Part shown: one piece after another, positions 2,698 through 38,276 of the stretch
How the letters are laid out: the number at the start of each line of letters is the position of its first letter
How positions within the stretch are numbered: position 1 is the first letter of the stretch
Assembly: GCA_017443845.1 (NCBI GenBank)
Contig: JAFSXX010000028.1
Location: 1 to 49,127, forward strand
Reading direction: 5' to 3'
Length of the DNA stretch: 49,127 bases
Source: Bacteroidales bacterium
GTDB lineage: Bacteria > Bacteroidota > Bacteroidia > Bacteroidales > UBA932
The notes under the pieces: generated by a model
What the model was told of the DNA's origin: nothing
Database searches by the model: none
What the model saw: the letters and a program-made list of their open reading frames with translations, nothing else
Made by a program: the position numbers and the translations under genes

Positions 2698-3573
2698 TCA
2701 GAGCACCGAGGTGAATAACCTCTCCCGGCTCACATACCTGTCATAGAGGAACAGGCACAGATCGGCGGCGAGCATCACCAGAATGCCCGCAACTCCGGTG
2801 CATCCCGCCAGGAACTCATTGTAACCGGTCACATAGATAATGGTAAGTCCCGCCACGGCGTTCAAGGTACCGTGCATTATCGCCGATACTATCACCGAAC
2901 GCGACTTGAGGCGGACATACTGCAATATCGGCGTAAGGGCGACACACATCGCAACCATCATAAAGACTCCTGCCACCGGGTTGGAGGGATAGTTATGTCC
3001 CATAAGGATAAGGGGAGCGTGCCAGAAGCCCCAGATCACTCCGATCATCACCGAAGCCGTCAGGAACCTTGCCCCCTTGAACTGCCTCAGCAGCCATCCC
3101 CGCCATCCGATCTCCTCGCCGAAGGAGAACAAGGCATTGAAGGTAATGCCCGTGAACAGGCCGGAAACGACGGTAATGGCACCCGTCAGAAAAGGAGTCA
3201 CCTCCACTGTGGGCATCGCCGCACCCAACTGGGAGGTCACCGCAGCCATCATCTCATTCGAAGTCGAGAATCCGATTCCCGGCATAAGGCACGAAACAGC
3301 AAGCGCCAGGATCGAGATGACGGGCATCAGCAGCCACCCGAAGAACCACCAGAAATTGACCTTCCAACGGATTCCGCAATTGCTGAAGAGTTTCTCGCGG
3401 TTTAATAGTTGCATTATGACCACAGTCAGCAACGGCACGAACATACACGCCGATGCGAACAACTGCCCGTATATTGATTCATACTCTCCCCCGCACAGGC
3501 GGAAGATTGCGGCAAAGGACCAGATCAGGGCAAACGCGAGGGCTGTGAAGACAGCGATATTTTTCTTATTCAT
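2698..3573 (-). CDS. CPBP family intramembrane glutamic endopeptidase
   Basis: This is a hydrophobic protein of 291 residues with about eight predicted membrane spans. The CPBP (CAAX protease / bacteriocin-processing) motifs are present: EEIGWRG (the EExxxR motif, residues 153-158 when counted from this ATG), then GFWHAP with its conserved His, and a later IMHGTLNA. Members cleave within or near the membrane; in bacteria they act in bacteriocin self-protection, prenyl-protein processing or signalling, and this substrate cannot be named. I prefer ATG at 3573 over the in-frame GTG at 3582. The gene has its own promoter at 3597-3626 and stands alone, divergent from the M14 peptidase gene. Confidence 0.88.
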   Translation of the reverse strand: MNKKNIAVFTALAFALIWSFAAIFRLCGGEYESIYGQLFASACMFVPLLTVVIMQLLNREKLFSNCGIRWKVNFWWFFGWLLMPVISILALAVSCLMPGIGFSTSNEMMAAVTSQLGAAMPTVEVTPFLTGAITVVSGLFTGITFNALFSFGEEIGWRGWLLRQFKGARFLTASVMIGVIWGFWHAPLILMGHNYPSNPVAGVFMMVAMCVALTPILQYVRLKSRSVIVSAIMHGTLNAVAGLTIIYVTGYNEFLAGCTGVAGILVMLAADLCLFLYDRYVSRERLFTSVL

Positions 3574-3596
3574 CGGGAACACATATTAAGTTTCTG

Positions 3597-13320: not shown

Positions 13321-15639
13321 ATGAAAAAGTATTTATATGCGTTAATGATGCTCATCTCCGGCATCCTCGCGATGGCGACATCCCATGATGCCGCTGCAAG
13401 GCGCCTGAGCGACAAGGAAATAGAAACCGCCATCAAAGCCTATATGGACGAGTGCCGCACCAACGGAATGGCGGTCGTGATGGTAAGGGGCGACAATATC
13501 GTTTACCAGAATGCATTCGGCTGGAGGGACAAAGAGGCCGGAGATCCGCTGGAAATCGACGATCTTTTCAAAATCGCATCCATCTCCAAGTCCTTCTCGG
13601 CCGTATCCATCCTCCAGTTGGTGGACCAGGGCAAACTCTCCCTCGAGGATGACGTAAGCGACCTGATAGGATTCGAGGTACGCCATCCACTCTGGCCTGA
13701 GATTCCCGTAACGCTCAAGATGCTGCTCTCGCACACCTCCGGGATGAAAGACGGCAACGGCAACTCCAGTTACTGGACTCCCGACTGGGTAGATCCCGCC
13801 AAGACTCCTCGCGACAAGCAGATAAAATATGCCTGGTACAAATACGCCCCCGGGCAGGGATACAACTACTGCAACCGCGGCTTCAACATGCTCGGGCGCA
13901 TCATCGAAAGGGCCAGCGGCGAGAGATTCGACGATTATGTACGCCATCACGTCCTCGACCGTGTCGGCGTAGGAATGGCCGGGTATAACGTGGACTCGCT
14001 CGACGCCTCGCGGCTTGTCGCCAAATATTCATACAACAGGGCGAAAGATACCCTCATCCGCACCAAGCCTTACGTGCGCATAAATGAGATAAAGGTTGCG
14101 GACGGAACTTACAAGATCGGTCTCGACGGCAATTACTGGTCCCCGACCGGAGGTATGAAGATCTCCGCGCCGGACCTCGCTAAATGGATGATGTGCCTGC
14201 GCGACAGCTGCATCACCGCTTCGGGCGACAGGCTGATCTCAGCGGAAAGCTACAGGAAACTCTTCACCCCCGTCACGCCCGCCGATCCCGGCACCAATTA
14301 CTGCCTGGGAGTGCGCACGGAGACCCGCTTCATCCACGGAAAGAAACTTCAGGGCCACACCGGATCGCTCCACGGCCTCAAGAGCTGTATGTTCTACTGC
14401 CCCGACGAGGACTGGGGATTTGTCTGCCTCTGCTCGAGCACCAAGCCCGACAAGATCAACGAGGTTTACGAAATCTACTACAAGACCGTCAACCTGCTCT
14501 ACAGCCAGTATATCAGGCCCATAACCGAAACCGACCTCGAGCGTGAGCTTACTGAAGTCATGGACAGGCGCGATGTCACATCGATGAACGTGGCGGTAGT
14601 CAAGGGCGGCAAGCTCATCTACGCCAACGCCCTAGGCACCAAGGACCTCGAGAGCGGCATACCCTCCTCGACAGGCGATATCTACCGCATCGCTTCCATA
14701 TCGAAGTCTTTCTCCGGAGCATCTATTATGCAGCTCGTGGAAGAGGGTAAAATCACCCTCGACGACGATGTCAGCGACATCCTCGGATTCGCGGTGCGCA
14801 ACCCCAAATTCCCCGACGTGCCGATAACCGTAAGAATGCTGCTGTCCCACACCTCCAGCATCGTTGACAACAGCAAGGTGGCCTACACCCGTTCCCTCGA
14901 CGGTACGATCATCCCCGGTACGGCTGAGCCTGATACGATTGCCTGCTGCTACTCATCGCATAAGCCGGGAACACATTATCAGTACTCCAACAGGGGTATC
15001 AACCTTGCCGGAGCCGTTATCGAGAAGGTATCCGGCGAGCGCTTCGACAACTATGTCCAAAAACATATCCTCCGCCCGCTGGGCATCAAGGATGCGGGCT
15101 TCAATGTGGATTCGCTCAAACGCTACCGCTTCGCGACCCTGTACAATGTGCGTGGCGGAAAATTCATCCCCCAGCCCGGAGCATACCGCCGCCCGGATGC
15201 ATTTGACAACTACCGCCTTGGCATCGACACCCCTGCCTTCTCCCCTGCCGGCGGAATGAAAATCTCGATCCTGGGTCTCGCGGAATGGATGATTACCCTG
15301 CAGAATGGAGGAGTCGGTTCAAACGGGAAGAGGATCCTCTCGGAGGAGAGCGTCGAAAGGATGTTCCAGAAGGAGGCCCCTGATGCCGATAATGATGTAT
15401 TCGGCAAAGAGTATGGCCTCACCGTGACAACCAGCCCGCTGCTGCTCGGATTCCCGATGAGAGGCCACACCGGAGGCGCATACGGACTTAGAAGCTGCCT
15501 GTTCTACAGTCCTGAACATGACTTCGGCATAGTGGTATTCTGCTCCAGCGTCGATGGTGCGGACGGCCCTCACGGCGGCGGCTCCGCCGCCTTCTGCGAG
15601 GCCGCTGAAGTACTTTACAATTCCCTGATTAAGAAATAA
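13321..15639 (+). CDS. Exported protein with two tandem beta-lactamase-family serine hydrolase domains
   Basis: The 772-residue protein has a signal peptide (MKKYLYALMMLISGILAMAT) and two complete serine hydrolase domains of the class C beta-lactamase / penicillin-binding type. Domain 1 (about 30-395) has the SxxK motif SISK (Ser87, Lys90), YCN (Tyr183-Asn185) and HTG (346-348). Domain 2 (about 400-770) has SISK (Ser459, Lys462), YSN (555-557) and HTG (716-718). Both sets of catalytic residues look intact, so both halves may be active. Family members act as D-amino-acid peptidases, esterases or muropeptide hydrolases in the periplasm or outside the cell; true beta-lactamase activity should not be assumed. 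The fusion probably arose by duplication. Confidence 0.9.
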   Translation: MKKYLYALMMLISGILAMATSHDAAARRLSDKEIETAIKAYMDECRTNGMAVVMVRGDNIVYQNAFGWRDKEAGDPLEIDDLFKIASISKSFSAVSILQLVDQGKLSLEDDVSDLIGFEVRHPLWPEIPVTLKMLLSHTSGMKDGNGNSSYWTPDWVDPAKTPRDKQIKYAWYKYAPGQGYNYCNRGFNMLGRIIERASGERFDDYVRHHVLDRVGVGMAGYNVDSLDASRLVAKYSYNRAKDTLIRTKPYVRINEIKVADGTYKIGLDGNYWSPTGGMKISAPDLAKWMMCLRDSCITASGDRLISAESYRKLFTPVTPADPGTNYCLGVRTETRFIHGKKLQGHTGSLHGLKSCMFYCPDEDWGFVCLCSSTKPDKINEVYEIYYKTVNLLYSQYIRPITETDLERELTEVMDRRDVTSMNVAVVKGGKLIYANALGTKDLESGIPSSTGDIYRIASISKSFSGASIMQLVEEGKITLDDDVSDILGFAVRNPKFPDVPITVRMLLSHTSSIVDNSKVAYTRSLDGTIIPGTAEPDTIACCYSSHKPGTHYQYSNRGINLAGAVIEKVSGERFDNYVQKHILRPLGIKDAGFNVDSLKRYRFATLYNVRGGKFIPQPGAYRRPDAFDNYRLGIDTPAFSPAGGMKISILGLAEWMITLQNGGVGSNGKRILSEESVERMFQKEAPDADNDVFGKEYGLTVTTSPLLLGFPMRGHTGGAYGLRSCLFYSPEHDFGIVVFCSSVDGADGPHGGGSAAFCEAAEVLYNSLIKK

Positions 15640-24650: not shown

Positions 24651-27206
24651 TCAGAACGGTCCGAAAGGGGAACCGCTCCCCACGGATGTCACCTTTGAGG
24701 TGACGGTGAATTCCTTCATTGTCTCACCCCCCTCGAGGGTGCCGGCACCATACCAGTTCTCCCACGAATCGGAACAGCCCGTCAGGGTGCCGCCCTTCTT
24801 GAAGACGAAATTGCCGCCAGCTATTTCGGGACAGCTGACTATCAGTATCGACCCCCTGGAGCTCAAATTCCTGGGAATCACATAACTGAACAAGGTGGTG
24901 GAGCCGTCGCTCCTGCAAAGCGAGACTACCTCATCCTTCAGCGCTCCGGAATTGCTGAACAATACGGTATATTGCATGGACAAACTCTTATTGGGCCTTA
25001 CGGCGCCGCCGGCAAAGCCGAGCAATATGCCGCCGTTGACCGTAAAATCATTGCCGTTGTCGGTATCGAACGCCTCTTCGGGCGTGGAACTGCCGCTAGA
25101 AAGGGCGATGCCTCCGTTGATGACAATCTTCCCGTTGGAATCGAGGCCGTCGTTGTTGGAAGCGTAGCAGAGAAGCTTTCCGCCGTTGATGGTGAAGCTC
25201 TTTGCGGCATTGACGGCATCGTCGTAGGCATACGAGCGGATCTCCCCGCCGTTGATGACGAAAGAGGACTTGCTCTCGATGCCTTCCGAACCCTCGCTAT
25301 TGCCGGTGACATTCACTGTTATAGAGCCTCCGTTGACAGTCAGATCGCCGTCGACCTTGATCCCCTTGGGCGAGCTGGTCACGTTCCTATTGTATTCATA
25401 CCGGGCTCCCGCGGTGGCGATATCCACCGTTCCCCCGTCGAATACCGCGGTGCGGTCCACGCTGATACCCTTGCCTCCGTCGCCGGTGCTACGCGCGATG
25501 ATGGTGCCGCCGCTCATATGGAAGAGGCTGTCCACCTTGAGGCAGCAGGAGCCGACCGCTTCACGCGCCGAGCTGTCGTACGTTCCGCCGCCGGTGGTGC
25601 CCAACTCGAGTTTGCCGCCGGTCATTTCGAAACAGCCGTCAGTGCTGACGGCCTTGCCCGCGACGCTGCTCACGTGGGAGTAGATAAGGCCGCCCGTGAT
25701 CTTTATTCCGATTCCGTCGGAAGCGTCGCCCTTGGCCTTGATGCCGTTGTCGGCGGCATCGGTCACCGCCAGGGTCACTCCGGGACGGGTATAGAGATAT
25801 TCGTCGGTCGAGATGCCGTGCTTGCTGTTGCCCTTGGCCACAAGGACTCCCGAGCCGCTGAAAATCAGCGACCCTTCGGCAAAGAAACATCCCTTGCGGT
25901 CCTCCGTCGAGGAGGTCCCGCCGCCCAGATAGACATAGTCCGCCACATACGACGGAGCGTCGGCGATGCGGTTTGTGGTACCGGGCGCCAGATGCACGAA
26001 AACGCGCTTGTGGCACTGGCTGTTGATGGCCGGCCCCCGCTTAGAGGTAATATCGGCCCCGGAGAGCGTCAGCTTGAACTTCTTGTCGCCATAGACCTTG
26101 AGCGATCCGTCGGTGGCGGTGCCCTTGAGGATTATCTCCACATTCTTGACGCTCTTGGTGAGCATATCCACAGTGACGTGGGCGCCGTTTGTGGTTATGT
26201 TGATATTCTTGTTGGTGGTCGCCACGCTGGCCGAAGTGCCGTTATATACGATGCTTACGGTATTGTTGAAGGTATTGGCCTCCCAGAAAAAATCGGCGTC
26301 GGTACCGACGGCATCGAGGGCGGCGTCAGTGGCTTTCTCGCCGTCGTACGGCTCGACCGTTATTATGTTCTCATCCACGGTGCCCGCTCCCGTCACATCG
26401 GTGACGGTATAGACCTTCGCCCTCTCGAAGGAGAGCGACTCCTGGGTGAACTTGGTCATCGTCGAGCCGTCGGTATATTCGACGGTCATCGTGATGCCCA
26501 GCTCGAAGACGTGGGGCATCAGGGCTACGAAAAAAGAGGTCGTATCGGAGGTTGAGAGCCGGACGCCCTCTCCGCAGTCGAGCACTATCTTCTTGATGGG
26601 TGCCCCATCATCGTCGGCGGTGCCCGTAAGTGTCGCCGAAAGCGACGGGACGTCGATGGTGACGGGACCGGAAAGGACGTCGTGGTTGTTGCCCGAGAGG
26701 GTGACCGATTTTACCGTCTTGGAGCCCGCCATCCTGAAGTTGATGAACGAGCAAAGGTTCATCATCCTGAAGGAGTCGCCGCTGCCGGAGGCCAGCAGTA
26801 TATTGGCTCCGACACCGTAACTGCCTTCAAGATACTCCTGTTCGCCCGGGAAGGTGGTCGAAACGGTGCTGTCGGCAGAATAAGCCGCCCGGGCGTCGTA
26901 GGGATAGAGCAATACGGTATAATCGGTAGCAAAGGTGGCCGTTCCCTCCGAAACACGGGTCAGGGGGCCCTGCGCATCTCCGGTCGAGCCGTCGAAGCGC
27001 CAGCAGGAATTGGCATCGGAAAGGCGGAAAACGGAGAGCAGGTCGCCCTCTGTCCAGACCGTCTTCATCTCATCCAAAAGCTGCACCCTGGTGCAGGATT
27101 CCGCGGTGACCCGGATGACATCCGTCGGAAGGCTTTCGGGCCCCTTTTCACACGCAGAAATGGCCAGCAATGCAATTGCTGACAGAAGAAGTAAACCTCG
27201 CTTCAT
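24651..27206 (-). CDS. Large surface lipoprotein with carbohydrate-binding (Cthe_2159-like) beta-helix repeats
   Basis: From ATG 27206 the product has 851 residues with lipobox AISAC (Cys19). Residues 25-310 form a fimbrillin-like domain with the W-TEGD-LLSVF motif near 51-60, matching the other two lipoproteins of the window. From about 330 onward comes the carbohydrate-binding domain known from Cthe_2159-like proteins, with GSLKVYGDKKFKLTLSGADI, KRGPAINSQ and HGISTDEYL. It continues in beta-helix repeats of the type FVINGGEIRS, FTINGGKLLC and IVINGGIALS. Known relatives bind acidic plant polysaccharides such as polygalacturonate; that ligand is not proven here. An in-frame start upstream at 27335 would spoil the signal peptide and is rejected. 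Confidence 0.88.
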   Translation of the reverse strand: MKRGLLLLSAIALLAISACEKGPESLPTDVIRVTAESCTRVQLLDEMKTVWTEGDLLSVFRLSDANSCWRFDGSTGDAQGPLTRVSEGTATFATDYTVLLYPYDARAAYSADSTVSTTFPGEQEYLEGSYGVGANILLASGSGDSFRMMNLCSFINFRMAGSKTVKSVTLSGNNHDVLSGPVTIDVPSLSATLTGTADDDGAPIKKIVLDCGEGVRLSTSDTTSFFVALMPHVFELGITMTVEYTDGSTMTKFTQESLSFERAKVYTVTDVTGAGTVDENIITVEPYDGEKATDAALDAVGTDADFFWEANTFNNTVSIVYNGTSASVATTNKNINITTNGAHVTVDMLTKSVKNVEIILKGTATDGSLKVYGDKKFKLTLSGADITSKRGPAINSQCHKRVFVHLAPGTTNRIADAPSYVADYVYLGGGTSSTEDRKGCFFAEGSLIFSGSGVLVAKGNSKHGISTDEYLYTRPGVTLAVTDAADNGIKAKGDASDGIGIKITGGLIYSHVSSVAGKAVSTDGCFEMTGGKLELGTTGGGTYDSSAREAVGSCCLKVDSLFHMSGGTIIARSTGDGGKGISVDRTAVFDGGTVDIATAGARYEYNRNVTSSPKGIKVDGDLTVNGGSITVNVTGNSEGSEGIESKSSFVINGGEIRSYAYDDAVNAAKSFTINGGKLLCYASNNDGLDSNGKIVINGGIALSSGSSTPEEAFDTDNGNDFTVNGGILLGFAGGAVRPNKSLSMQYTVLFSNSGALKDEVVSLCRSDGSTTLFSYVIPRNLSSRGSILIVSCPEIAGGNFVFKKGGTLTGCSDSWENWYGAGTLEGGETMKEFTVTSKVTSVGSGSPFGPF

Positions 27207-27246
27207 AATATAGAGATGCCCGATCCCGGTCGGGCATGACAAGCAA

Positions 27247-27879
27247 CTATTTGTCTTCCTCCTTGCTGCCGGAGAAGAAACGCCAGTGGAAGATAAGCAG
27301 ATAGATGGCGCCGCAGGTGATGCAACTGTCGGCAAAATTGAATATCGGCCTGAAGAAGATGACGTGGCGGCCGCCCCAGAAAGGCACCCACGAGGGAAGG
27401 TCAGTGTCGATCAGGGGGAAATAGAGCATATCCACCACCTTGCCCTGCAGGAAGGGGGCATAGCCGCCTCCGGGAGGGAAAAGCTGCGCCACCTCGGTAA
27501 AGGTGCTCTCGGAGAAAACAAGGCCGTAGAAGAGTGAATCCACTATGTTGCCCAGTGCTCCGCACATAATTGCCGCAAGGCCTACAAGGACGCCCCAGGG
27601 AGTCTCCGGCTTCTTGAGGAGACGCCTCATATAGATCAGGATAATCGCCACGAGGACGATCCTGAAAATACTGAGCAGATACTTGCCGATCTGGCCTCCG
27701 AACTGCATTCCGAAGGCCATGCCGTTGTTCTCTATGAAATAGATCTGGAACCAGTCACCCAGCACGTGGATGCTCTGTCCGATAGTCATATTGGTCTTGA
27801 CCAGGATCTTGATGACCTGGTCGATGACAAGGAGAAGGACGACGAAGATGGAAATCCTGGTGCCGCGGGAAAGCTTCAT
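27247..27879 (-). CDS. lspA: Lipoprotein signal peptidase
   Basis: The 210-residue inner membrane aspartic protease has four predicted spans. The family motifs are present: VLLLVIDQVIKILV at the N-terminus, ENNGMAFGM, and the two catalytic aspartates in GNIVDSLFYG and FNFADSCITCG. It cleaves signal peptides of lipidated prolipoproteins, which the several lipoproteins of this window need. It is slightly longer than usual because of an insertion between the aspartates. It starts six bases after the DksA-like gene; the order ileS - regulator - lspA is the common one. Confidence 0.95.
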   Translation of the reverse strand: MKLSRGTRISIFVVLLLVIDQVIKILVKTNMTIGQSIHVLGDWFQIYFIENNGMAFGMQFGGQIGKYLLSIFRIVLVAIILIYMRRLLKKPETPWGVLVGLAAIMCGALGNIVDSLFYGLVFSESTFTEVAQLFPPGGGYAPFLQGKVVDMLYFPLIDTDLPSWVPFWGGRHVIFFRPIFNFADSCITCGAIYLLIFHWRFFSGSKEEDK

Positions 27880-28332: not shown

Positions 28333-31713
<3,381 letters not shown>

Positions 31714-31725
31714 TTATTTTTGAAT

Positions 31726-31755
31726 TTGCAAAGATACGATTATTCACTAATTTTG
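31726..31755 (+). promoter_or_regulatory. cvpA promoter overlapping the divergent ileS -7 box
   Basis: Plus strand: TTG at 31726-31728, 19 bases, then TAATTTTG at 31748-31755, a full consensus match 22 bases before the cvpA ATG. Minus strand: TATCTTTG (31729-31736), an exact -7 box for ileS, lies inside the same stretch. The two promoters must compete for polymerase. Confidence 0.7.
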
Positions 31756-31777: not shown

Positions 31778-32263
31778 ATGGGAACTATCGATATAATAAT
31801 CCTCGTCTGCCTGTTGCCTTCGCTCTACTTCGGTCTCAAGAACGGCCTCGTCAAGCAGATTATCTCCTTCGCAGTAATATATCTGGGAATCACCCTCTCG
31901 CTCAAGTTCTCGGGCTTGGTCGAACCACTGGTGCAGCAATATCTCCACATAGAGGGCTTCTGGGCCAAGTTCATCGCCTTTGTCGCCATCTTCGCGGCGG
32001 TGGCCCTCGTCCTCTCCCTGCTCGGCAATATCATCGACAAAGCCATCAAGGCGGGGGCGACCGGATTCCTCAACAGGGTGCTCGGGCTGCTTCTCTCGGT
32101 TTTCATCTTCGTCCTGCTGACCGCTCTGCTGGTCTATATGGTCGATGCCCTCAACCAGGCCACCGACCTCATCCCGAAAGAGAAACTCGCTGAGTCAAAG
32201 CTATATCCGTTTATGCTGGATATCGCAAAAACGTTTTTTCCGTATTTGAAATCACTTTTCTAA
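31778..32263 (+). CDS. cvpA: CvpA family inner membrane protein
   Basis: The 161-residue membrane protein has four predicted spans and the CvpA family start (IDIIILVCLLPSLYFGLKNG). E. coli CvpA was named for a requirement in colicin V production and is linked to envelope stress tolerance. Here it is the first plus-strand gene before a double-glycine peptide export cluster of the colicin V type. A weak terminator (32288-32311) separates them, so joint function is only suggested by position. Confidence 0.85.
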   Translation: MGTIDIIILVCLLPSLYFGLKNGLVKQIISFAVIYLGITLSLKFSGLVEPLVQQYLHIEGFWAKFIAFVAIFAAVALVLSLLGNIIDKAIKAGATGFLNRVLGLLLSVFIFVLLTALLVYMVDALNQATDLIPKEKLAESKLYPFMLDIAKTFFPYLKSLF

Positions 32264-32376: not shown

Positions 32377-32523
32377 ATGAAACGCGAAAATGAGGCATTG
32401 CCGCTCTCCGAACTCGAAGTTACGGTAGAAGGGCTGCTCCCTAAACAGAGCGGAGCTGCCAGGGGTGCCTACTTTATCCTGATGATTCTGCTTATCATCC
32501 TCTTCGTGGCGGTTATTGCGTGA
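32377..32523 (+). CDS. 48-residue single-span membrane protein at the head of the peptide export cluster
   Basis: The ORF has a good ribosome-binding site (GGAGGAAGAACCG before ATG). Residues 1-30 are hydrophilic (MKRENEALPLSELEVTVEGL) and residues 31-48 form one hydrophobic span (AYFILMILLIILFVAVIA) ending at the stop. Two readings are possible. The cytoplasmic part and span look like the N-terminus of the HlyD-type adaptors that accompany peptidase-ABC exporters in Bacteroidota, cut off after the span. Alternatively it is a small immunity or accessory protein, which in bacteriocin clusters is often a tiny membrane protein. It ends 57 bases before the exporter gene. Confidence 0.6.
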   Translation: MKRENEALPLSELEVTVEGLLPKQSGAARGAYFILMILLIILFVAVIA

Positions 32524-32580
32524 GTTCGGGGGAGCAGTGCAGTTGACATTGTGCCGGGTGGAGCTCCCCTTTATTGAAGG

Positions 32581-34695
32581 ATGAAGATGAAGACAGATAT
32601 CAGACAGCACGACATTTCCGACTGCGCGGCGGCGGTAATCTGCTCGGTGGCGCGCCACTATGGGAGGGATATCCCCCTCACGGTCATACGCGAGGCCTCG
32701 GGCACCAGCTCGCTGGGAACCTCCGTGAAAGGGGTGATCGACGCCTGCACGCAACTGGGGTTCAAGGCCGGAGGATACAGATCCCCCGAAAAGGACTTCG
32801 CCCCGCTGCGGAAGCTGGGATACCCCATCGTGCTGCATATCATAAACCGGCGGGGAGACCTCCATTTCGTGGTCCTTTACGGCCTCAAGGGAGGCAAGGC
32901 CACCATAATGGATCCCGCTCCCGGCCGCCACTTGAAGATTTCCGAAGCCGAACTCCGCGAAATGTGGACCGGCTACCTGATAGTCATAACCCCGGATCCG
33001 GGCAAGGCATCCTTTTCAAAACGCCCAGTTTCACCTCTGAAACAACTTGTTACTATTCTTGCTTCTATCAAATCTCATGATTTTCCCCTCGCCCTGCTCG
33101 GATCCTTTTTCTCGATTTTCACCGGAATCGTCACCGCGGTTTTCCTGCAGAAGACGATCGATACCATACTGCCCGGAGGCGACCCCGCAGCCCTCGCCAG
33201 GGCCGTAGGGCTTATGGCAGCGCTGGCCGTATGCGGACTCGGGGTATCCTATCTGAGGGCTATCTACGCCCTGCGCACCGGACTCAAGATCGACGGCACC
33301 CTGATCCTGGGATATCTCAGGAGCCTGTTCAAACTCCCGGCCGGATTCTTCGCCCACCGGGGAGCCGGCGAACTCAACTCGAGGATAGCCGACGCCGTCA
33401 AGGTGAGGGCATTCCTCACCGAAGGCGTGACCTCGGCCCTCACCGGAGCCTTTATGCTCTGCGCCTCCTTCGCCCTGATGTTCCATTACAACTGGAAACT
33501 CGCCCTCTTCGCCGCGGCCTTCATACCGTTCTATGTACTGCTCTTCGCAATCTCCGACCAGGTGAACCGGAAGGTCAAGCGGGAGGTCATCGAGAGCGCC
33601 GCATCGTTCGAGGAGAAGAGCGTGGAGTGCATCTCCTCGATCCGCACCCTCAAGTATTTCGACCGGCGCGGCAGCGGCTACCTCAACCTCGAGAGGCGCT
33701 ACGCCGAACTCAGCGGCAACATCTACAGGGGCGGACGGTGGCTCGACATATTCGCGACGGCCGGAGAGGGGCTCAACACAGCGATGCTCCTCAGCGTGCT
33801 GGCCTTCGGATCGGGCCTCGTAATGAAAGGCAGCCTCTCGGCCGGCGAGCTGGTCTCCTTCTACTCCCTTATGGCCTATTTCTCCTCCCCTCTCGGGCAG
33901 CTGGCCGCCATCAGCGACGGCTACAACGAGGCGAAGATCTCGCTCGAAAGGCTCAGGGACATAACTACCCTCGACCCCGAGGGTGAGGGCTGCATCAGGG
34001 TTCCCCTCGATGACGCCGGAGACCTGGAATTCAGGAATGTGGATTTCTCATATCCCGGAGCGCCGCCCCTGCTCGAGAAGTTCAGCGCCGTCTTCCCCGC
34101 CGGCAAGATAACAGCCATCCGGGGTGAGAGCGGATGCGGAAAGAGCTCGCTCGCCGCCCTGCTGATGCGGGACTATCCGGTCCGGGCGGGAAAGATACTC
34201 GCAGGAGGCACCGACATCTCGATAATCGACCTCCCCCAGTGGCGCAGCCACATCACCATAGTACCGCAGGAGCCTTCGCTGATGAACGCATCGATCCTCG
34301 ACAACATCACCGGGGGCAGCGCCGAGCCCGACTTGAAGCGTGTCGCAGGGCTCCTCGACGAACTGGGGATGAAGGAGTTCGTCACCTCGCTCCCCACCGG
34401 ATTGCTGACCGTGATAGGAGAACGCGGGGCCCTGCTCTCCGGAGGCCAGAGGCAGAGGATAGCCCTCGCCAGGGCTCTCTACCTCGAACCGCGGATCCTC
34501 ATAATGGACGAGGCCACCTCCTCGCTCGACGAGGAGTCGCAGGGCTATATCCTCAAGAAGGCGCAGGCCTTCAGGGATGAGGGAGGAACAGTGATAATGA
34601 TAACCCACCGCAGCGACAATGCGGCCATTGCAGACTATATAATAAATATGGATGAGTGCGCACTCACCGGGCTGAAGGCGGAGGCCCATACCTGA
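32581..34695 (+). CDS. C39 peptidase-containing ABC exporter for double-glycine leader peptides
   Basis: The 704-residue protein has three parts. Residues 1-140 are a C39 peptidase: Gln9 and Cys15 in RQHDISDCAAAVIC, His95 in DLHFVVLYG, and Asp111 in IMDPAPG. Residues 155-460 are the membrane domain. Residues 480-704 are the ATPase: Walker A GESGCGKSS (Lys521), signature LSGGQRQR (619-626), Walker B ILIMDE and the H-loop His676. Such proteins cut the leader after Gly-Gly and export the mature peptide through the inner membrane. The usual Gly after the catalytic Cys is Ala here. The gene lies directly before two genes for double-glycine peptides and before the outer membrane channel and adaptor. 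Confidence 0.93.
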   Translation: MKMKTDIRQHDISDCAAAVICSVARHYGRDIPLTVIREASGTSSLGTSVKGVIDACTQLGFKAGGYRSPEKDFAPLRKLGYPIVLHIINRRGDLHFVVLYGLKGGKATIMDPAPGRHLKISEAELREMWTGYLIVITPDPGKASFSKRPVSPLKQLVTILASIKSHDFPLALLGSFFSIFTGIVTAVFLQKTIDTILPGGDPAALARAVGLMAALAVCGLGVSYLRAIYALRTGLKIDGTLILGYLRSLFKLPAGFFAHRGAGELNSRIADAVKVRAFLTEGVTSALTGAFMLCASFALMFHYNWKLALFAAAFIPFYVLLFAISDQVNRKVKREVIESAASFEEKSVECISSIRTLKYFDRRGSGYLNLERRYAELSGNIYRGGRWLDIFATAGEGLNTAMLLSVLAFGSGLVMKGSLSAGELVSFYSLMAYFSSPLGQLAAISDGYNEAKISLERLRDITTLDPEGEGCIRVPLDDAGDLEFRNVDFSYPGAPPLLEKFSAVFPAGKITAIRGESGCGKSSLAALLMRDYPVRAGKILAGGTDISIIDLPQWRSHITIVPQEPSLMNASILDNITGGSAEPDLKRVAGLLDELGMKEFVTSLPTGLLTVIGERGALLSGGQRQRIALARALYLEPRILIMDEATSSLDEESQGYILKKAQAFRDEGGTVIMITHRSDNAAIADYIINMDECALTGLKAEAHT

Positions 34696-34727
34696 ATTCC
34701 GCCATAACCATCTAAAACAAAACACCT

Positions 34728-34916
34728 ATGGAAGAAAAAATGTTGAAGGATTCGGGGTTGTTGGAAATGACTTCTTCCGAACTGTATCTGAGGGGCGGTG
34801 CAAGTGCCCTTGAAACGATCTTCGCCAAGATCAAGTATGTCGTTAACTTCATCGCCGACTATGTCCCCAAGTTCCTCAAGGGAATCGCGGACGGATTCGG
34901 AGTCAAGATATTCTAG
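34728..34916 (+). CDS. Double-glycine leader peptide A (bacteriocin-like precursor)
   Basis: The 62-residue precursor has a leader of 24 residues ending ELYLRGG, with the classical spacing of hydrophobic and acidic residues (SGLLEMTSSELYLRGG). The predicted mature peptide of 38 residues, ASALETIFAK to DGFGVKIF, has no cysteine, a net charge near +2, an amphipathic helical pattern, and a GxxxG motif (GIADG) near its C-terminus. It lies 32 bases after the C39 exporter gene and 12 bases before a second such gene. Class IIb bacteriocin subunits have this size, charge and motif; activity is not shown. A signalling peptide is the alternative. Confidence 0.85.
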   Translation: MEEKMLKDSGLLEMTSSELYLRGGASALETIFAKIKYVVNFIADYVPKFLKGIADGFGVKIF

Positions 34917-34928
34917 GAGGGGCGGTAT

Positions 34929-35099
34929 ATGAAAGAGATCAAGAACCTCGGACTCGTAGCCGTCAGCGCCAATGAGGCCGCGGCCGTTTTCGGCGGCGTC
35001 GACAAGGGAGCTCAGGAGACCCTCTACATCATCGGTTACGTCATCGGCGTCATCGCCAAGGTATTCACCAGCATCTTCTCCCTCATTACGAGGAAGTAG
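34929..35099 (+). CDS. Double-glycine leader peptide B (bacteriocin-like precursor)
   Basis: The 56-residue precursor has a 23-residue leader, with VSANEAAAVFGG at its end, that resembles the leader of peptide A (GL-x2-x-S-x2-E...GG). The predicted mature part has 33 residues, VDKGAQETLY to SLITRK. It is very hydrophobic in the middle, has no cysteine, a net charge near +2 with a basic tail, and carries GYVIG, a GxxxG motif inside the hydrophobic helix. The Shine-Dalgarno GGAGGGGCGG directly overlaps the stop of peptide A. The next gene (TolC-like) starts nine bases after its stop. The pairing of two different short cationic peptides in one operon suggests they act together. Confidence 0.85.
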   Translation: MKEIKNLGLVAVSANEAAAVFGGVDKGAQETLYIIGYVIGVIAKVFTSIFSLITRK

Positions 35100-35108
35100 C
35101 CTGACGCT

Positions 35109-36407
35109 ATGAGGGGATTCATCCTGGCAGCGGTCCTCGCCGCGCTGCTGCCGTCCGCCGCATCCGGGCCGTTTACGCTCGAAGAGTGCATCAGGATGGC
35201 ACTGGGCAGCGACCGTTCCCTGCGGCAGCGGGAGGCGGCCCTGTCGGAAAGCCGGACAGAAAGGGCGCTTTCCATCCTGGACTGGATTCCCGAAATCAGC
35301 GTAGGAGCCGGCAATGATTTCAACTGGGGGCGCTCCGTGGATATGCAGGAACTCCTGATAGTGGACAACCGGATGACCCTGACCACCTCGTTCACCGCGA
35401 ATGCTTCGGTTTCGCTCACCAAACTCGCCCTCAACCCTTTGCGCGGAGAGGGCCTCAGGCTGGACGAAGAAGATGCATCCCTCGCCCTGGAACTGGCCCG
35501 CAGGCAGCTCGCCGCCGATGTTACGGGATGCTTCCTGCAGGTTCTGCTCTGCCGCCAGGCGTGCGGTATCTGCGAGGGCAACAGCGCGGAAATGGAGGCT
35601 GCCCTCGCCGAAGCCAGGGCGAGGGTCGAAGCCGGGGAAATGGCTCCCGGGGAACTCTCCGGGATGGAGGCCCAACTCTGCAGGGAACGCTCCGCAGCCG
35701 TCGAAGCCGCCAACCGGTTGAAACTTGCCGGACTCACACTTTGCGATTATCTGGATCTGCCGCCGGAGGAGGAACTTCAACTCCTTCCTCCGACGGAAGA
35801 TTCCTTACCCCGCATCGACTGGAAACGGGTTTTGGACTATTCCAGCGGCGACGATCCCGGGATATCCGCCGCCAGGAACGGCGTCGAGCGCGGCAAAAAC
35901 AGCATTAAACTGGCCTGGGCCGCTTTCCTGCCACAGATCACACTCTCGGGAGGATGCGGGACATATTACGGCAACACCGGAAACGGAAGTTTCGGCCGGC
36001 AGCTCTCGAACAATATCAACCCTTACGCCTCAGTCACCCTGTCGATTCCACTGACCGGAGGCTCGGCCAATGCCAGGGCGCTCTCTCAGGCGAAGACGGA
36101 ACTCCGGAGCAGGATCCTGGAGATGGAGAAAGTCCGCATAAAGAGCGCCTCCGACCTCAGGAGCGAGCTGGCCGAGGCCGACAATCTCTACGCCAGCCAC
36201 GCCGCGGCCAAAGGGAGCCTCGAGGCGGCATTGCGTGCCGAGGCGGATGCCGCGCTCCGGTTCAGGGCCGGGGAGATTTCGGGAAGCGATTATCTCTCTG
36301 CCAGGAACGCACGGCTTAAGGCCCAGGCGGAGCTGCTTCAGGCCAGATACCGCTACCTGCTGAAGCTCAAAATCCTGGAATACCGCTACGGCATAAAGAG
36401 CTATTGA
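35109..36407 (+). CDS. TolC family outer membrane channel protein
   Basis: The 432-residue protein has a signal peptide (MRGFILAAVLAALLPSAASG) and the two repeated OEP halves of TolC-like channels. Conserved features are LEECIRMALGSDRSLRQREA near residue 25, long alpha-helical coiled-coil stretches (EAALAEARARVEAGEMAPGE), a beta region ASVTLSIPL near 310, and a second helix-turn FRAGEISGSDYLSARN near the end. It would form the outer membrane exit of a tripartite exporter with the C39 ABC protein and the adaptor encoded next, one base after its stop. Confidence 0.9.
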   Translation: MRGFILAAVLAALLPSAASGPFTLEECIRMALGSDRSLRQREAALSESRTERALSILDWIPEISVGAGNDFNWGRSVDMQELLIVDNRMTLTTSFTANASVSLTKLALNPLRGEGLRLDEEDASLALELARRQLAADVTGCFLQVLLCRQACGICEGNSAEMEAALAEARARVEAGEMAPGELSGMEAQLCRERSAAVEAANRLKLAGLTLCDYLDLPPEEELQLLPPTEDSLPRIDWKRVLDYSSGDDPGISAARNGVERGKNSIKLAWAAFLPQITLSGGCGTYYGNTGNGSFGRQLSNNINPYASVTLSIPLTGGSANARALSQAKTELRSRILEMEKVRIKSASDLRSELAEADNLYASHAAAKGSLEAALRAEADAALRFRAGEISGSDYLSARNARLKAQAELLQARYRYLLKLKILEYRYGIKSY

Positions 36408-36408
36408 T

Positions 36409-37587
36409 ATGAAAAGGAAAAAGGGAATCATTATGTGCATCATAGGCGGCGGAATCCTCCTTGCGCTGCTGCTTTCAAGCGGAAAGAGAGATAAGGCCTG
36501 CGAGGTGGAGGTAGCGGCGGTAAAGCGCGGCGACATATCGGAGAGCATCCCCTGCGGAGGCAAGATTCGTCCCGTGAGAGAGGTCGAGATGGCAGCGGAG
36601 GTATCGGGCGAGATAGTCTGGCTGCCCGTCAGCGACGGCGACCCCGTGAAGCGGGGCCAGGTGCTGCTCAAGATAAGGCAGGATGCCTATCTGGCCGCCC
36701 TCGAGAGTGCGAGAGCCTCGCTCGGGATGCTCAGGGCCGAACTCGCCCAGCAGGAGAGCCGAGCCTCGCTCGCACGGATCGAGCTGGAGAGGGTCAGGGA
36801 CCTTGTCTCCGGAGAGGCAGCGCCCAGGAGCCGCCTGGAGAAGGCCGAAGCCGAGAAATCGATAGCCGACGCCCAGCTCGAGGCCGCCCGGTGCGCAGTA
36901 GAACGGGGCGAGGCGGCGGTAAAGGAGGCGGAAGACAATCTCGCACGCACGGTAATTGTCGCCCCTATGGACGGCAACGTCTCGCATCTGGCGGTCAAGA
37001 CCGGCGAGCGGATAGTCGGGACCAGCCAGATGGCCGGTACTCCAATAATGCGGATAACCGACTTCTCCCAGATGGAACTGGTGGTCAATGTGGGAGAAAA
37101 CGACGCGGTCCGGATTCACGAAGGGGACAGCGCAGAGGTCTCCCTGGAGGCCTACGGAGGGCGCAAATTCAGCGGAATCGTGACAAAAATCGCCAATTCC
37201 GCCAAATTTATTGACGGAAGCTTCGGGCAAGTTACTAACTTTGAGGTCCGGATTGCAATGCTGAATGAATCCTATGCCGACCTGCTCGGGAGCGACAGGT
37301 TCCCCGTCAGGCCCGGAATGTCCGCAACCGCGGCCATAAGGACCTCCGAGGCCTCGGGAATCCTCAGGGTTCCAGCCCAGAGCCTCTTCACCTCCCGTGG
37401 AAGCGAGGCGGTATGGAGGGTGGAAAACGGCAGGGTTTATTCGACGGCGGTCCGGACCTCGATCCAGGACCTCGACTACACCGGCGTAACCGAAGGGCTG
37501 AGGGAGGGAGACCTCGTGGTCATCGCCCCCGCCCAGGCAGTAAGCGGAGGGCTTGAGGATGGCGGCAAAGTAAAGATCAAGAATTGA
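36409..37587 (+). CDS. Periplasmic adaptor (HlyD/MacA-like membrane fusion protein)
   Basis: The 392-residue protein has an N-terminal membrane anchor (GIIMCIIGGGILLALLLSSG). It then has the adaptor domains: a lipoyl half-motif VSGEIVWLPVSDGDPVKRGQ near 65-84, a coiled-coil hairpin (about 90-180), the second lipoyl half APMDGNVSHLAVKTGERI, and beta-barrel and membrane-proximal regions to the end. It resembles MacA/RND-type adaptors more than the HlyD proteins usual with C39 exporters. The 3'-end overlaps the start region of tsaB by four bases from the TTG. It should link the ABC exporter to the TolC-like channel. Confidence 0.9.
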   Translation: MKRKKGIIMCIIGGGILLALLLSSGKRDKACEVEVAAVKRGDISESIPCGGKIRPVREVEMAAEVSGEIVWLPVSDGDPVKRGQVLLKIRQDAYLAALESARASLGMLRAELAQQESRASLARIELERVRDLVSGEAAPRSRLEKAEAEKSIADAQLEAARCAVERGEAAVKEAEDNLARTVIVAPMDGNVSHLAVKTGERIVGTSQMAGTPIMRITDFSQMELVVNVGENDAVRIHEGDSAEVSLEAYGGRKFSGIVTKIANSAKFIDGSFGQVTNFEVRIAMLNESYADLLGSDRFPVRPGMSATAAIRTSEASGILRVPAQSLFTSRGSEAVWRVENGRVYSTAVRTSIQDLDYTGVTEGLREGDLVVIAPAQAVSGGLEDGGKVKIKN

Positions 37588-37595
37588 AAAAGACG

Positions 37596-38276
37596 ATGGA
37601 ACACCCCGTAATACTTATGATGGAAACCAGCACCGAATGGTGCTCGGTGGCAATCTCCTCCGGAGAGAAGATAATAGCGCGCCGGATAACCGAGACCGGA
37701 AAGCAACACGCCTCCCTCCTAGCCCCCTTTGTGGACGAGGCCCTCAAAGAGGCGGGCCTGAAGGCCTCCGAATGCGACGCCGTAGCCGTAAGCGAAGGGC
37801 CTGGTTCATATACCGGGCTCAGAGTCGGGGTCTCCACCGCCAAGGGGCTCTGCTTCGGCGCCGGAATCCCCCTGCTTGCCGTAGGCACACTCAAGGTACT
37901 CGCGATGCAGGGAGCAGGCAAGGCCGATTTCATCGTCCCGATGATAGACGCCCGCAGGATGGAGGTTTACTGCGCCGTCTTTACAGGCGACGGCACGCAG
38001 AAGAGCGATACCGAAGCCAGAATCCTGGACGCCTCGAGTTTCACCGACCTTCTCGAAACTGGGAAAGTCCTCTTCTTAGGCGACGGGGCTGCCAAATTCA
38101 GCCAGGTCTGCAACCATCCCAACGCCATATTCGAGCAGTGCTGTCCCGTCGCGGACGCGATGCTCCTGCCCGCCCTCGAGGAGTACAAAAAGAAAGAGTT
38201 CAAAGACATTGCGTACTTTGAACCCTTCTATCTCAAGGAATTCGTTGCCGGAATCAGCAAGAAATCCGTCTTATAG
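37596..38276 (+). CDS. tsaB: tRNA threonylcarbamoyladenosine biosynthesis protein TsaB
   Basis: From ATG 37596 the product has 226 residues and the ASKHA fold of TsaB: ILMMETSTEWCSVAISSG at the N-terminus, then HASLLAPFVDEAL, SEGPGSYTGLRVGVSTAKGL, and MIDARRMEVYCAVF. It is the non-catalytic partner of TsaD in making t6A37 on ANN-decoding tRNAs. It starts eight bases after the adaptor stop, so transcription from the peptide export operon probably runs into this essential gene. It overlaps the convergent TlpA-like gene by six bases. Confidence 0.93.
   Translation: MEHPVILMMETSTEWCSVAISSGEKIIARRITETGKQHASLLAPFVDEALKEAGLKASECDAVAVSEGPGSYTGLRVGVSTAKGLCFGAGIPLLAVGTLKVLAMQGAGKADFIVPMIDARRMEVYCAVFTGDGTQKSDTEARILDASSFTDLLETGKVLFLGDGAAKFSQVCNHPNAIFEQCCPVADAMLLPALEEYKKKEFKDIAYFEPFYLKEFVAGISKKSVL

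Follow-up and report, generated by a model that had tools for sequence, protein, structure and literature searches.

What does a pair of short secreted peptides do in a Gram-negative lineage that appears to have kept it as part of its core genome? Two-peptide systems with double-glycine (GG) leaders are familiar mainly as weapons of Gram-positive bacteria. We analyzed contig JAFSXX010000028.1 of a Bacteroidales bacterium (assembly GCA_017443845.1), a single contig of a 2.06-Mb genome in 57 contigs; its 49,127 nucleotides are referred to here as the window. On the forward strand it encodes two adjacent GG precursors, pep1 and pep2, together with a C39 peptidase-containing ATP-binding cassette (ABC) exporter (PCAT), an outer-membrane channel and a periplasmic adaptor. 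We consider it very likely that pep1 and pep2 form a secreted helical heterodimer paired through GxxxG motifs and that this heterodimer is a core trait. The kind of system is known; what is new here, judging from the genes, is a class IIb-like anatomy combined with a colicin V-type route and core inheritance in Bacteroidales.

Gene content of the export locus

The exporter (32581..34695, + strand, 704 residues) matched Pfam Peptidase_C39, ABC_membrane and ABC_tran. It was followed on the same strand by the precursors of pep1 (34728..34916) and pep2 (34929..35099), a TolC-like outer-membrane channel (35109..36407; Pfam OEP, 1e-37) and an RND/MacA-like periplasmic adaptor (36409..37587; Pfam HlyD_D23/HlyD_3). 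All five genes lie head to tail with gaps of 32, 12, 9 and 1 bases, within the 1-32 bases given by the initial annotation, which had described a C39-ABC exporter, two GG precursors, a TolC-like channel and an adaptor on one strand; our open reading frame (ORF) calls and Pfam matches agreed with it. The exporter residues it had named, Gln9, Cys15, His95 and Asp111, were present and were identical in 70 of 70 aligned homologues, these being the ones among our 81 collected loci with every gene required for the alignment. The genes thus bore out the initial prediction: all parts of a tripartite export system are encoded, among them an exporter of the cleaving type, together with two precursors. 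Absent from that earlier account were the two-part pairing, the vertical inheritance as a core locus and the small gene sTM at 32377, where the described segment starts.

Compared with 559 solved relatives, the exporter gave its lowest E-values with P-glycoprotein-type exporters, over the ABC part only. Full-length structural matches were found with 4ry2, an ABC-type bacteriocin transporter (6-687), and with ComA, 8hf7 (9-692). Among NCBIfam models, the adaptor scored 176.2 bits with the RND/MacA-type model TIGR01730, above its cut-off of 94.9, and 77.5 bits with the HlyD type I model, below the cut-off of 208.65. Neither the exporter nor the channel reached an NCBIfam cut-off among the models shown (channel with TIGR01844, 75.6 bits; cut-off 225.15). 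In the genome of the window, no other exporter match spanned a C39 domain and no convincing second copy of the locus was found.

pep1 and pep2 as a predicted pair of helices

The pep1 precursor (62 residues) has a 24-residue leader and a 38-residue mature part, and the pep2 precursor (56 residues) a 23-residue leader and a 33-residue mature part; both mature parts are predicted helices, with GxxxG at precursor residues 52-56 and 36-40, respectively. No further ORF lies between the precursors and the channel gene. The GG-ending leaders leaving 38 and 33 residues were as the initial annotation had proposed, and neither mature peptide of the window contains cysteine. Among relatives, the mature part was cysteine-free in 70 of 78 pep1 and 55 of 77 pep2 sequences. 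GG was present in all 78 pep1 and 77 pep2 precursors, those outside the genus having been collected with profiles that include GG. We split leaders at the first GG, which mis-splits one sequence of each peptide (L153 for pep1, L056 for pep2) and leaves the motif counts unaffected. The hydrophobic positions of the pep1 leader lie one residue nearer to the GG than in the canonical leader spacing, and the pep2 leader of one subclade has only about 14-15 residues.

We found GxxxG in the mature part of 76 of 78 pep1 sequences (shuffled sequences, 17.5 +/- 3.4) and 68 of 77 pep2 sequences (13.7 +/- 3.2). The conservation moment of both mature peptides was strongest at 100 degrees per residue, the period of an alpha helix (p 0.016 for pep1 and 0.007 for pep2); this was measured against shuffled columns on 75 pep1 rows (omitting L153, L159 and L162) and 76 pep2 rows (omitting L056), unweighted for relatedness. 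The best 18-residue windows surround the motifs, with p about 0.001, uncorrected for the scan. AlphaFold2 models made from two-row alignments placed helices at residues 16-57 of pep1 and 26-55 of pep2. The predicted local distance difference test score (pLDDT) was 88, 89 and 79 in the blocks of pep1 residues 31-60 and 90, 92 and 77 in those of pep2 residues 31-56, and lower elsewhere; the predicted template modelling score (pTM) was low (0.36 and 0.40). GxxxG in the helical part of each peptide is a hallmark of class IIb bacteriocins, with AxxxA and SxxxS as exceptions (PMC8538875; papers are cited here by PMC number for the portions of their text that were available). Taken together, pep1 and pep2 look like one two-part system with paired GxxxG helices.

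The initial annotation had not recognized the precursors as members of any described family, and neither window peptide matched a family library above cut-off. Among relatives (26 pep1 and 23 pep2 members), no family was matched by more than two members, the best E-values being 0.00041 for pep1 (the AMEP412 response-elicitor family) and 0.0055 for pep2. The AMEP412 family was weakly matched by 2 of the 26 pep1 members, one at 13.5 bits (cut-off 45), and lactococcin G-beta by 1 of the 26 at 15.1 bits (cut-off 37); bit scores cover 10 of the 26 members, and the best AMEP412 match is without one. Kinship to designed coiled coils in the PDB (best E 0.00018) or to unrelated proteins was rejected, and we took these weak matches as reflecting helix composition. 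No publication on the pair or the locus was recognized in a literature search with most subscription journals outside its coverage, and the available portions of PMC10352776 and PMC13289728 do not describe the pair. A commentary on IIBacFinder states that class II candidates occur in Bacteroidota (PMC12648078); with this and the partial literature coverage, an automatic prediction of pep1 and pep2 may exist.

Occurrence in the genus and family

The exporter was found in 37 of 40 genomes of the genus (E <= 1e-100). True loss in the other three was not accepted, since two of them (G006 and G030) gave no TsaB match either and the contig of the third (G026) begins inside TsaB, the product of the gene downstream of the locus. 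Both peptide genes followed the exporter in 36 of 37 genus loci, of which 36 were found by the exporter alone and the remaining one is the window. At the single exception (L068) the contig stops 149 bases past the exporter, and pep1 and pep2 start another contig of the same genome. pep1 and pep2 are not a chance ORF pair. The initial annotation had made its reading depend on precursor genes that stay beside the exporter in related genomes; they are kept throughout the genus and in further genera, and by this criterion the reading is not refuted.

Within the family, the pep2 profile matched 84 of 398 genomes, including several weak matches in ORFs of more than 300 residues that we read as chance. 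A wider pep1 profile matched 131 of 368 genomes in 9 of 25 genera, with two doubtful matches at the weak end and a single match per genome except in G013, where the pep1 gene is split across two contigs. In 77 of 81 loci, the exporter, pep1 and pep2 shared a strand and followed one another in that order. The four loci without a full pair were L068; L157 and L158, with no peptide in the remaining 595 and 304 bases, respectively; and L137, in which pep2 was not found. At L157 (g17), an adaptor-like ORF lies before the exporter on the cvpA side, a different gene order. The pair occurred in eleven genera, which we label g1, g2, g4, g5, g6, g11, g12, g13, g15, g18 and g21, those of g6 and g21 being diverged weak-scoring pairs accepted by position. 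Weak scores (E 0.0004-0.05) were accepted on position, GG and ORF size for pep2 of L138-L140, L144, L154, L159 and L162 and for pep1 of L159 and L162. Genus loci were chosen by the exporter alone and most other loci by a peptide-profile match, which inflates presence outside the genus but leaves order and neighbors unbiased.

The site is flanked by ileS/cvpA and tsaB in nine of the eleven genera. Loci of g2 and g6 and two of g4 (L126 and L151) retain tsaB downstream and have the other flank rearranged. tsaB followed the adaptor in 71 of 81 loci and pep2 in 3 of 81. One genus, g22, has an empty site: cvpA and tsaB are immediate neighbors in 3 of 3 loci, and no exporter was found in 5 of 5 genomes tested (E <= 1e-60). 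A further exporter search matched 12 genomes and took one place from 10; six of these places (L160, L161 and L163-L166) are outside the 81 loci, and none of the flank genes or peptides was seen beside their exporters.

Searches of order-level samples at E 0.01 returned 6 of 393 genomes for pep1, 4 of 393 for pep2 and 5 of 364 for the wider pep1 profile, of which 3, 1 and 3, respectively, were family members and the rest were weak. The diverged pair of one family member (G044, locus L159) was overlooked by these profiles and recognized by position alone, so more distant versions may exist outside the family. The pair is thus not convincingly present outside the family as far as these profiles reach. 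Neither window peptide matched any of 72,556 plasmid records at E 0.01, and spread on plasmids was rejected on that result.

Inheritance and selection

We compared the exporter tree with a joint tree of the flank genes (TsaB, thioredoxin-like, HIT and GreA) on the 59 loci having all flank genes. The exporter tree contained 31 of the 35 well-supported flank splits, and the flank tree 35 of 40 exporter splits; TsaB and the other three flank genes agreed with each other in 21 of 26 splits and, in reverse, 28 of 34. The genus was a clade in both the exporter and TsaB trees. IleS agreed less with the exporter (27 of 39 and 30 of 40 splits). Over 70 loci, the distance correlation was r 0.76 for exporter and TsaB, 0.36 for exporter and IleS, and 0.24 for IleS and TsaB. 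An accessory bacteriocin island was rejected, given an exporter phylogeny that largely matches that of the neighboring genes and a single site in nine genera. Two forms of IleS itself (28333-31695) are present in the genus, with about 66-69% and 75-78% identity to that of the window and higher values in the closest relatives; a gene replacement of IleS within the genus is possible.

The ratio of nonsynonymous to synonymous substitution rates (dN/dS) was summed over 21 pairs of relatives, leaving 18-21 pairs per gene once saturated values were dropped. Mature pep1 (0.135) and mature pep2 (0.114) were similar to TsaB (0.117) and the exporter (0.131); IleS gave 0.063. The leaders were looser (0.205 for pep1 and 0.293 for pep2), and single pairs scattered, with mature pep1 reaching 0.41. 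The low values suggest that the secreted parts are kept between relatives, with no sign of an arms race. By these sequence comparisons, the genus has inherited the locus vertically, as part of its core and under purifying selection.

Promoter-like elements

An exact match to TTTG-N19-TAnnTTTG, which we take to be the Bacteroidota promoter consensus, lies at 31725..31755 on the + strand before cvpA and is the putative promoter of the whole unit. cvpA itself (31778..32263, +; Pfam Colicin_V, 1e-24) encodes a CvpA-family membrane protein and is a housekeeping neighbor. The window holds three exact matches (expected 0.10); the others are on the - strand at 1726-1757 and 32196-32229, the second antisense inside cvpA. 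Among the 69 of 81 loci having the gap, an element with at most one mismatch was present between ileS and cvpA in 60 (shuffles expect 4.5). The gap between cvpA and the exporter had one in 20 of the 69 at varying places (expected 8.7) and none in 49. This pattern suggests that a housekeeping promoter drives at least part of the transcription of the peptide genes.

Possible roles of the pair

In the explanation that we favor, the C39 domain would cut each leader after its GG, and the ABC domain would drive the 38- and 33-residue peptides through the adaptor and channel to the outside. There, in the manner of class IIb two-peptide bacteriocins, the GxxxG faces of the two helices would pack together, and the pair would insert into and permeabilize the membranes of other bacteria. 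Producers would be protected by lacking a target and not by a universal dedicated immunity gene. The steps that are grounded in sequence are the genes, their order, the catalytic residues, the motifs, the helix-like conservation and the core inheritance. The specific function, membrane activity against other bacteria, we hold tentatively, at somewhat short of an even chance.

Several observations count against this explanation. Most bacteriocins are patchy in distribution, unlike the core inheritance and purifying selection seen here. GxxxG also drives helix pairing in ordinary membrane proteins, and the precursors were partly collected with profiles containing the motif. Strict GxxxG was absent in 2 of 78 pep1 and 9 of 77 pep2 sequences, which have small-xxx-small instead; this says little, since shuffles yield small-xxx-small in about 60 of 78 and 64 of 77. 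The charge of pep1 is modest (median +1, range -5 to +5). Family-wide mean identity was lower for mature pep1 (0.30) and pep2 (0.32) than for the exporter (0.42) and TsaB (0.51), and the genus was not a clade in the joint flank tree or in the IleS tree. Three g15 loci (L121, L124 and L125) lack a channel and adaptor beside the peptides, tsaB following the pair directly; elsewhere their genomes encode only distant adaptors with 23-27% identity. Finally, a candidate immunity gene of the sTM type, taken as a same-strand ORF of 38-80 residues with a C-terminal hydrophobic segment before the exporter, was present in 50 of 81 loci and not found in 31 (antisense control, 0 of 81), and one clade (L067, L069 and L071) shares a deletion of ~170 bases that removes sTM entirely, together with a few bases flanking it at both ends.

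In the window, sTM (32377..32523, +) encodes 48 residues with a hydrophilic N-terminal half and a single C-terminal hydrophobic segment, and is a candidate for an immunity protein or an exporter accessory. Among the class IIb immunity proteins named in PMC8538875 the smallest is CbnZ, with 42 residues and one helix, and sTM is comparable to it in size. By genus, sTM was found in 34 of 37 loci of g1, 11 of 15 of g4, 3 of 3 of g12, 1 of 2 of g18 and 1 of 1 of g6; it was not found in g15 (0 of 13), g11 (0 of 4) or the single loci of g2, g5, g13, g17, g21 and g24. No sTM remnant was found in the cvpA-exporter stretches examined of the deletion clade, in which both peptides are intact and constrained, and its relatives L063 and L065 retain sTM. 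Loss of sTM with the peptides kept suggests that sTM is dispensable for self-protection there, or that protection is encoded elsewhere.

The likeliest alternative is that the pair acts on the producers' own envelope or surface, in cell-cell contact, the matrix or the upkeep of membrane or peptidoglycan, as a housekeeping job under the cvpA promoter. Such a role would suit an exporter that is near-universal in the genus, housekeeping-level selection between close pairs, an operon set within a run of housekeeping genes and the distribution of promoter-like elements (before cvpA in 60 of 69 loci, with 49 of 69 lacking one after it), as well as the absence of a universal immunity gene and the tolerated loss of sTM. 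However, the empty g22 site, with no PCAT at our threshold in 5 of 5 genomes tested and 3 of 3 loci, indicates that members of the family can do without the function; mean identity among the mature peptides falls to about 30%, a stronger divergence than that of TsaB; and most loci encode an outward channel. We consider an envelope role rather unlikely.

Less likely again is signalling, with the peptides as a two-part pheromone that the same strain or its relatives would sense. PCAT export and conservation of the mature sequences suit pheromones as well as toxins (PMC7018657), but the genes annotated on either side of the operon in the window include no regulator, kinase or receptor, the mature parts vary widely from genus to genus with no partner encoded alongside, and two long helices with paired GxxxG faces exceed, in our judgement, what a pheromone needs. 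It is very improbable that each peptide is an ordinary class II microcin or bacteroidetocin-like toxin of the single-peptide kind, the two lying side by side and forming no two-part agent: the PCAT, adaptor and channel set is that of microcin V, and the bacteroidetocins of Bacteroidales are likewise GG peptides secreted without a known immunity gene (PMC6671954), but the pair keeps its order in 77 of 81 loci with matched GxxxG faces, and the Cys-free window peptides are far shorter than the 60-90-residue cores of class II microcins (PMC10233263).

Returning to the secreted pair, the locus presents a class IIb-like anatomy as an inherited core of a Bacteroidales genus and related genera, with the full two-membrane route encoded and with hints that no dedicated immunity gene is required. 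It raises the question of whether such pairs serve purposes other than strain warfare, or whether a whole lineage can retain a broad agent without immunity genes; the empty g22 site and the sTM deletion clade are natural comparisons. That Gram-negatives hold a core, non-weapon GxxxG heterodimer with a housekeeping or social job, class IIb-like bacteriocins being one outcome among several, is possible, though we think it doubtful.

Comparison with known systems

The locus is most like the class IIb systems (lactococcin G, plantaricins and carnobacteriocin XY) in its two adjacent short genes, GG leaders and PCAT export, and in helical peptides that each carry GxxxG, with rare small-residue substitutes and no adjoining modification genes (PMC8538875). 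It differs from them in its outer-membrane channel and adaptor, its core inheritance, its lack of a universal immunity gene and the absence of a family-level sequence match. With the export of colicin V and the class II microcins it shares a C39-ABC exporter, periplasmic adaptor, TolC-type channel and GG precursors. It differs in having two peptides of 38 and 33 residues, an RND/MacA-like adaptor, its own channel gene and a chromosomal core position; the class II microcin anatomy of a 60-90-residue core with an adjacent immunity gene (PMC10233263) was not found here.

Bacteroidetocins are similar in their Bacteroidota hosts, GG leader and PCAT, and no immunity gene is described for them in the available text of PMC6671954. 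Bacteroidetocins A and B are each a single 42-residue peptide with four cysteines, from a cluster with a thiol oxidoreductase and a protein with five transmembrane (TM) segments (PMC6671954). The features that define the group (about 42 residues, at least 2 Cys, an oxidoreductase and a TM gene; PMC6671954) were not seen here, the operon lacking both an oxidoreductase and a 5-TM gene; a thioredoxin-like gene lies beyond tsaB on the opposite strand. The Cdz system of Caulobacter also consists of two secreted glycine-zipper partners using type I secretion in a Gram-negative (PMC5380434). Its CdzC and CdzD have RTX-signal-like N-terminal regions, and its 3-TM immunity protein CdzI is essential (PMC5380434), whereas the present locus has small GG-leader peptides and a one-helix sTM.

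Neighboring genes and other features of the window

Upstream of the operon lie genes for a class I tRNA synthetase (labelled IleS here), a DksA/TraR-type protein, signal peptidase II and CvpA. As far as can be told, the "colicin V production" in the name of CvpA is a coincidence. Downstream are the TsaB-like gene and genes for thioredoxin-like, HIT, GreA and riboflavin kinase/FAD synthetase proteins. The TsaB-like gene (37584..38276, +; Pfam TsaD family, 6.7e-30), whose product we take to be the tRNA-modification protein TsaB, is a core gene and the downstream border of the locus; the ATG at 37596 is a likelier start than 37584. Housekeeping genes made up the majority of the further window genes checked.

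Three other genes were noted. At 2698-3582 (- strand), 30 kb from the operon, is an Rce1/CPBP-like membrane protease, which we presume to belong to the Abi family. Abi-family proteins are described as immunity proteins of class IIb bacteriocins (PMC8538875). A 772-residue protein with a beta-lactamase-family domain (PF00144) is encoded at 13321-15639 (+ strand), and an 894-residue protein with Cthe_2159 carbohydrate-binding-type domains at 24651-27335 (- strand).

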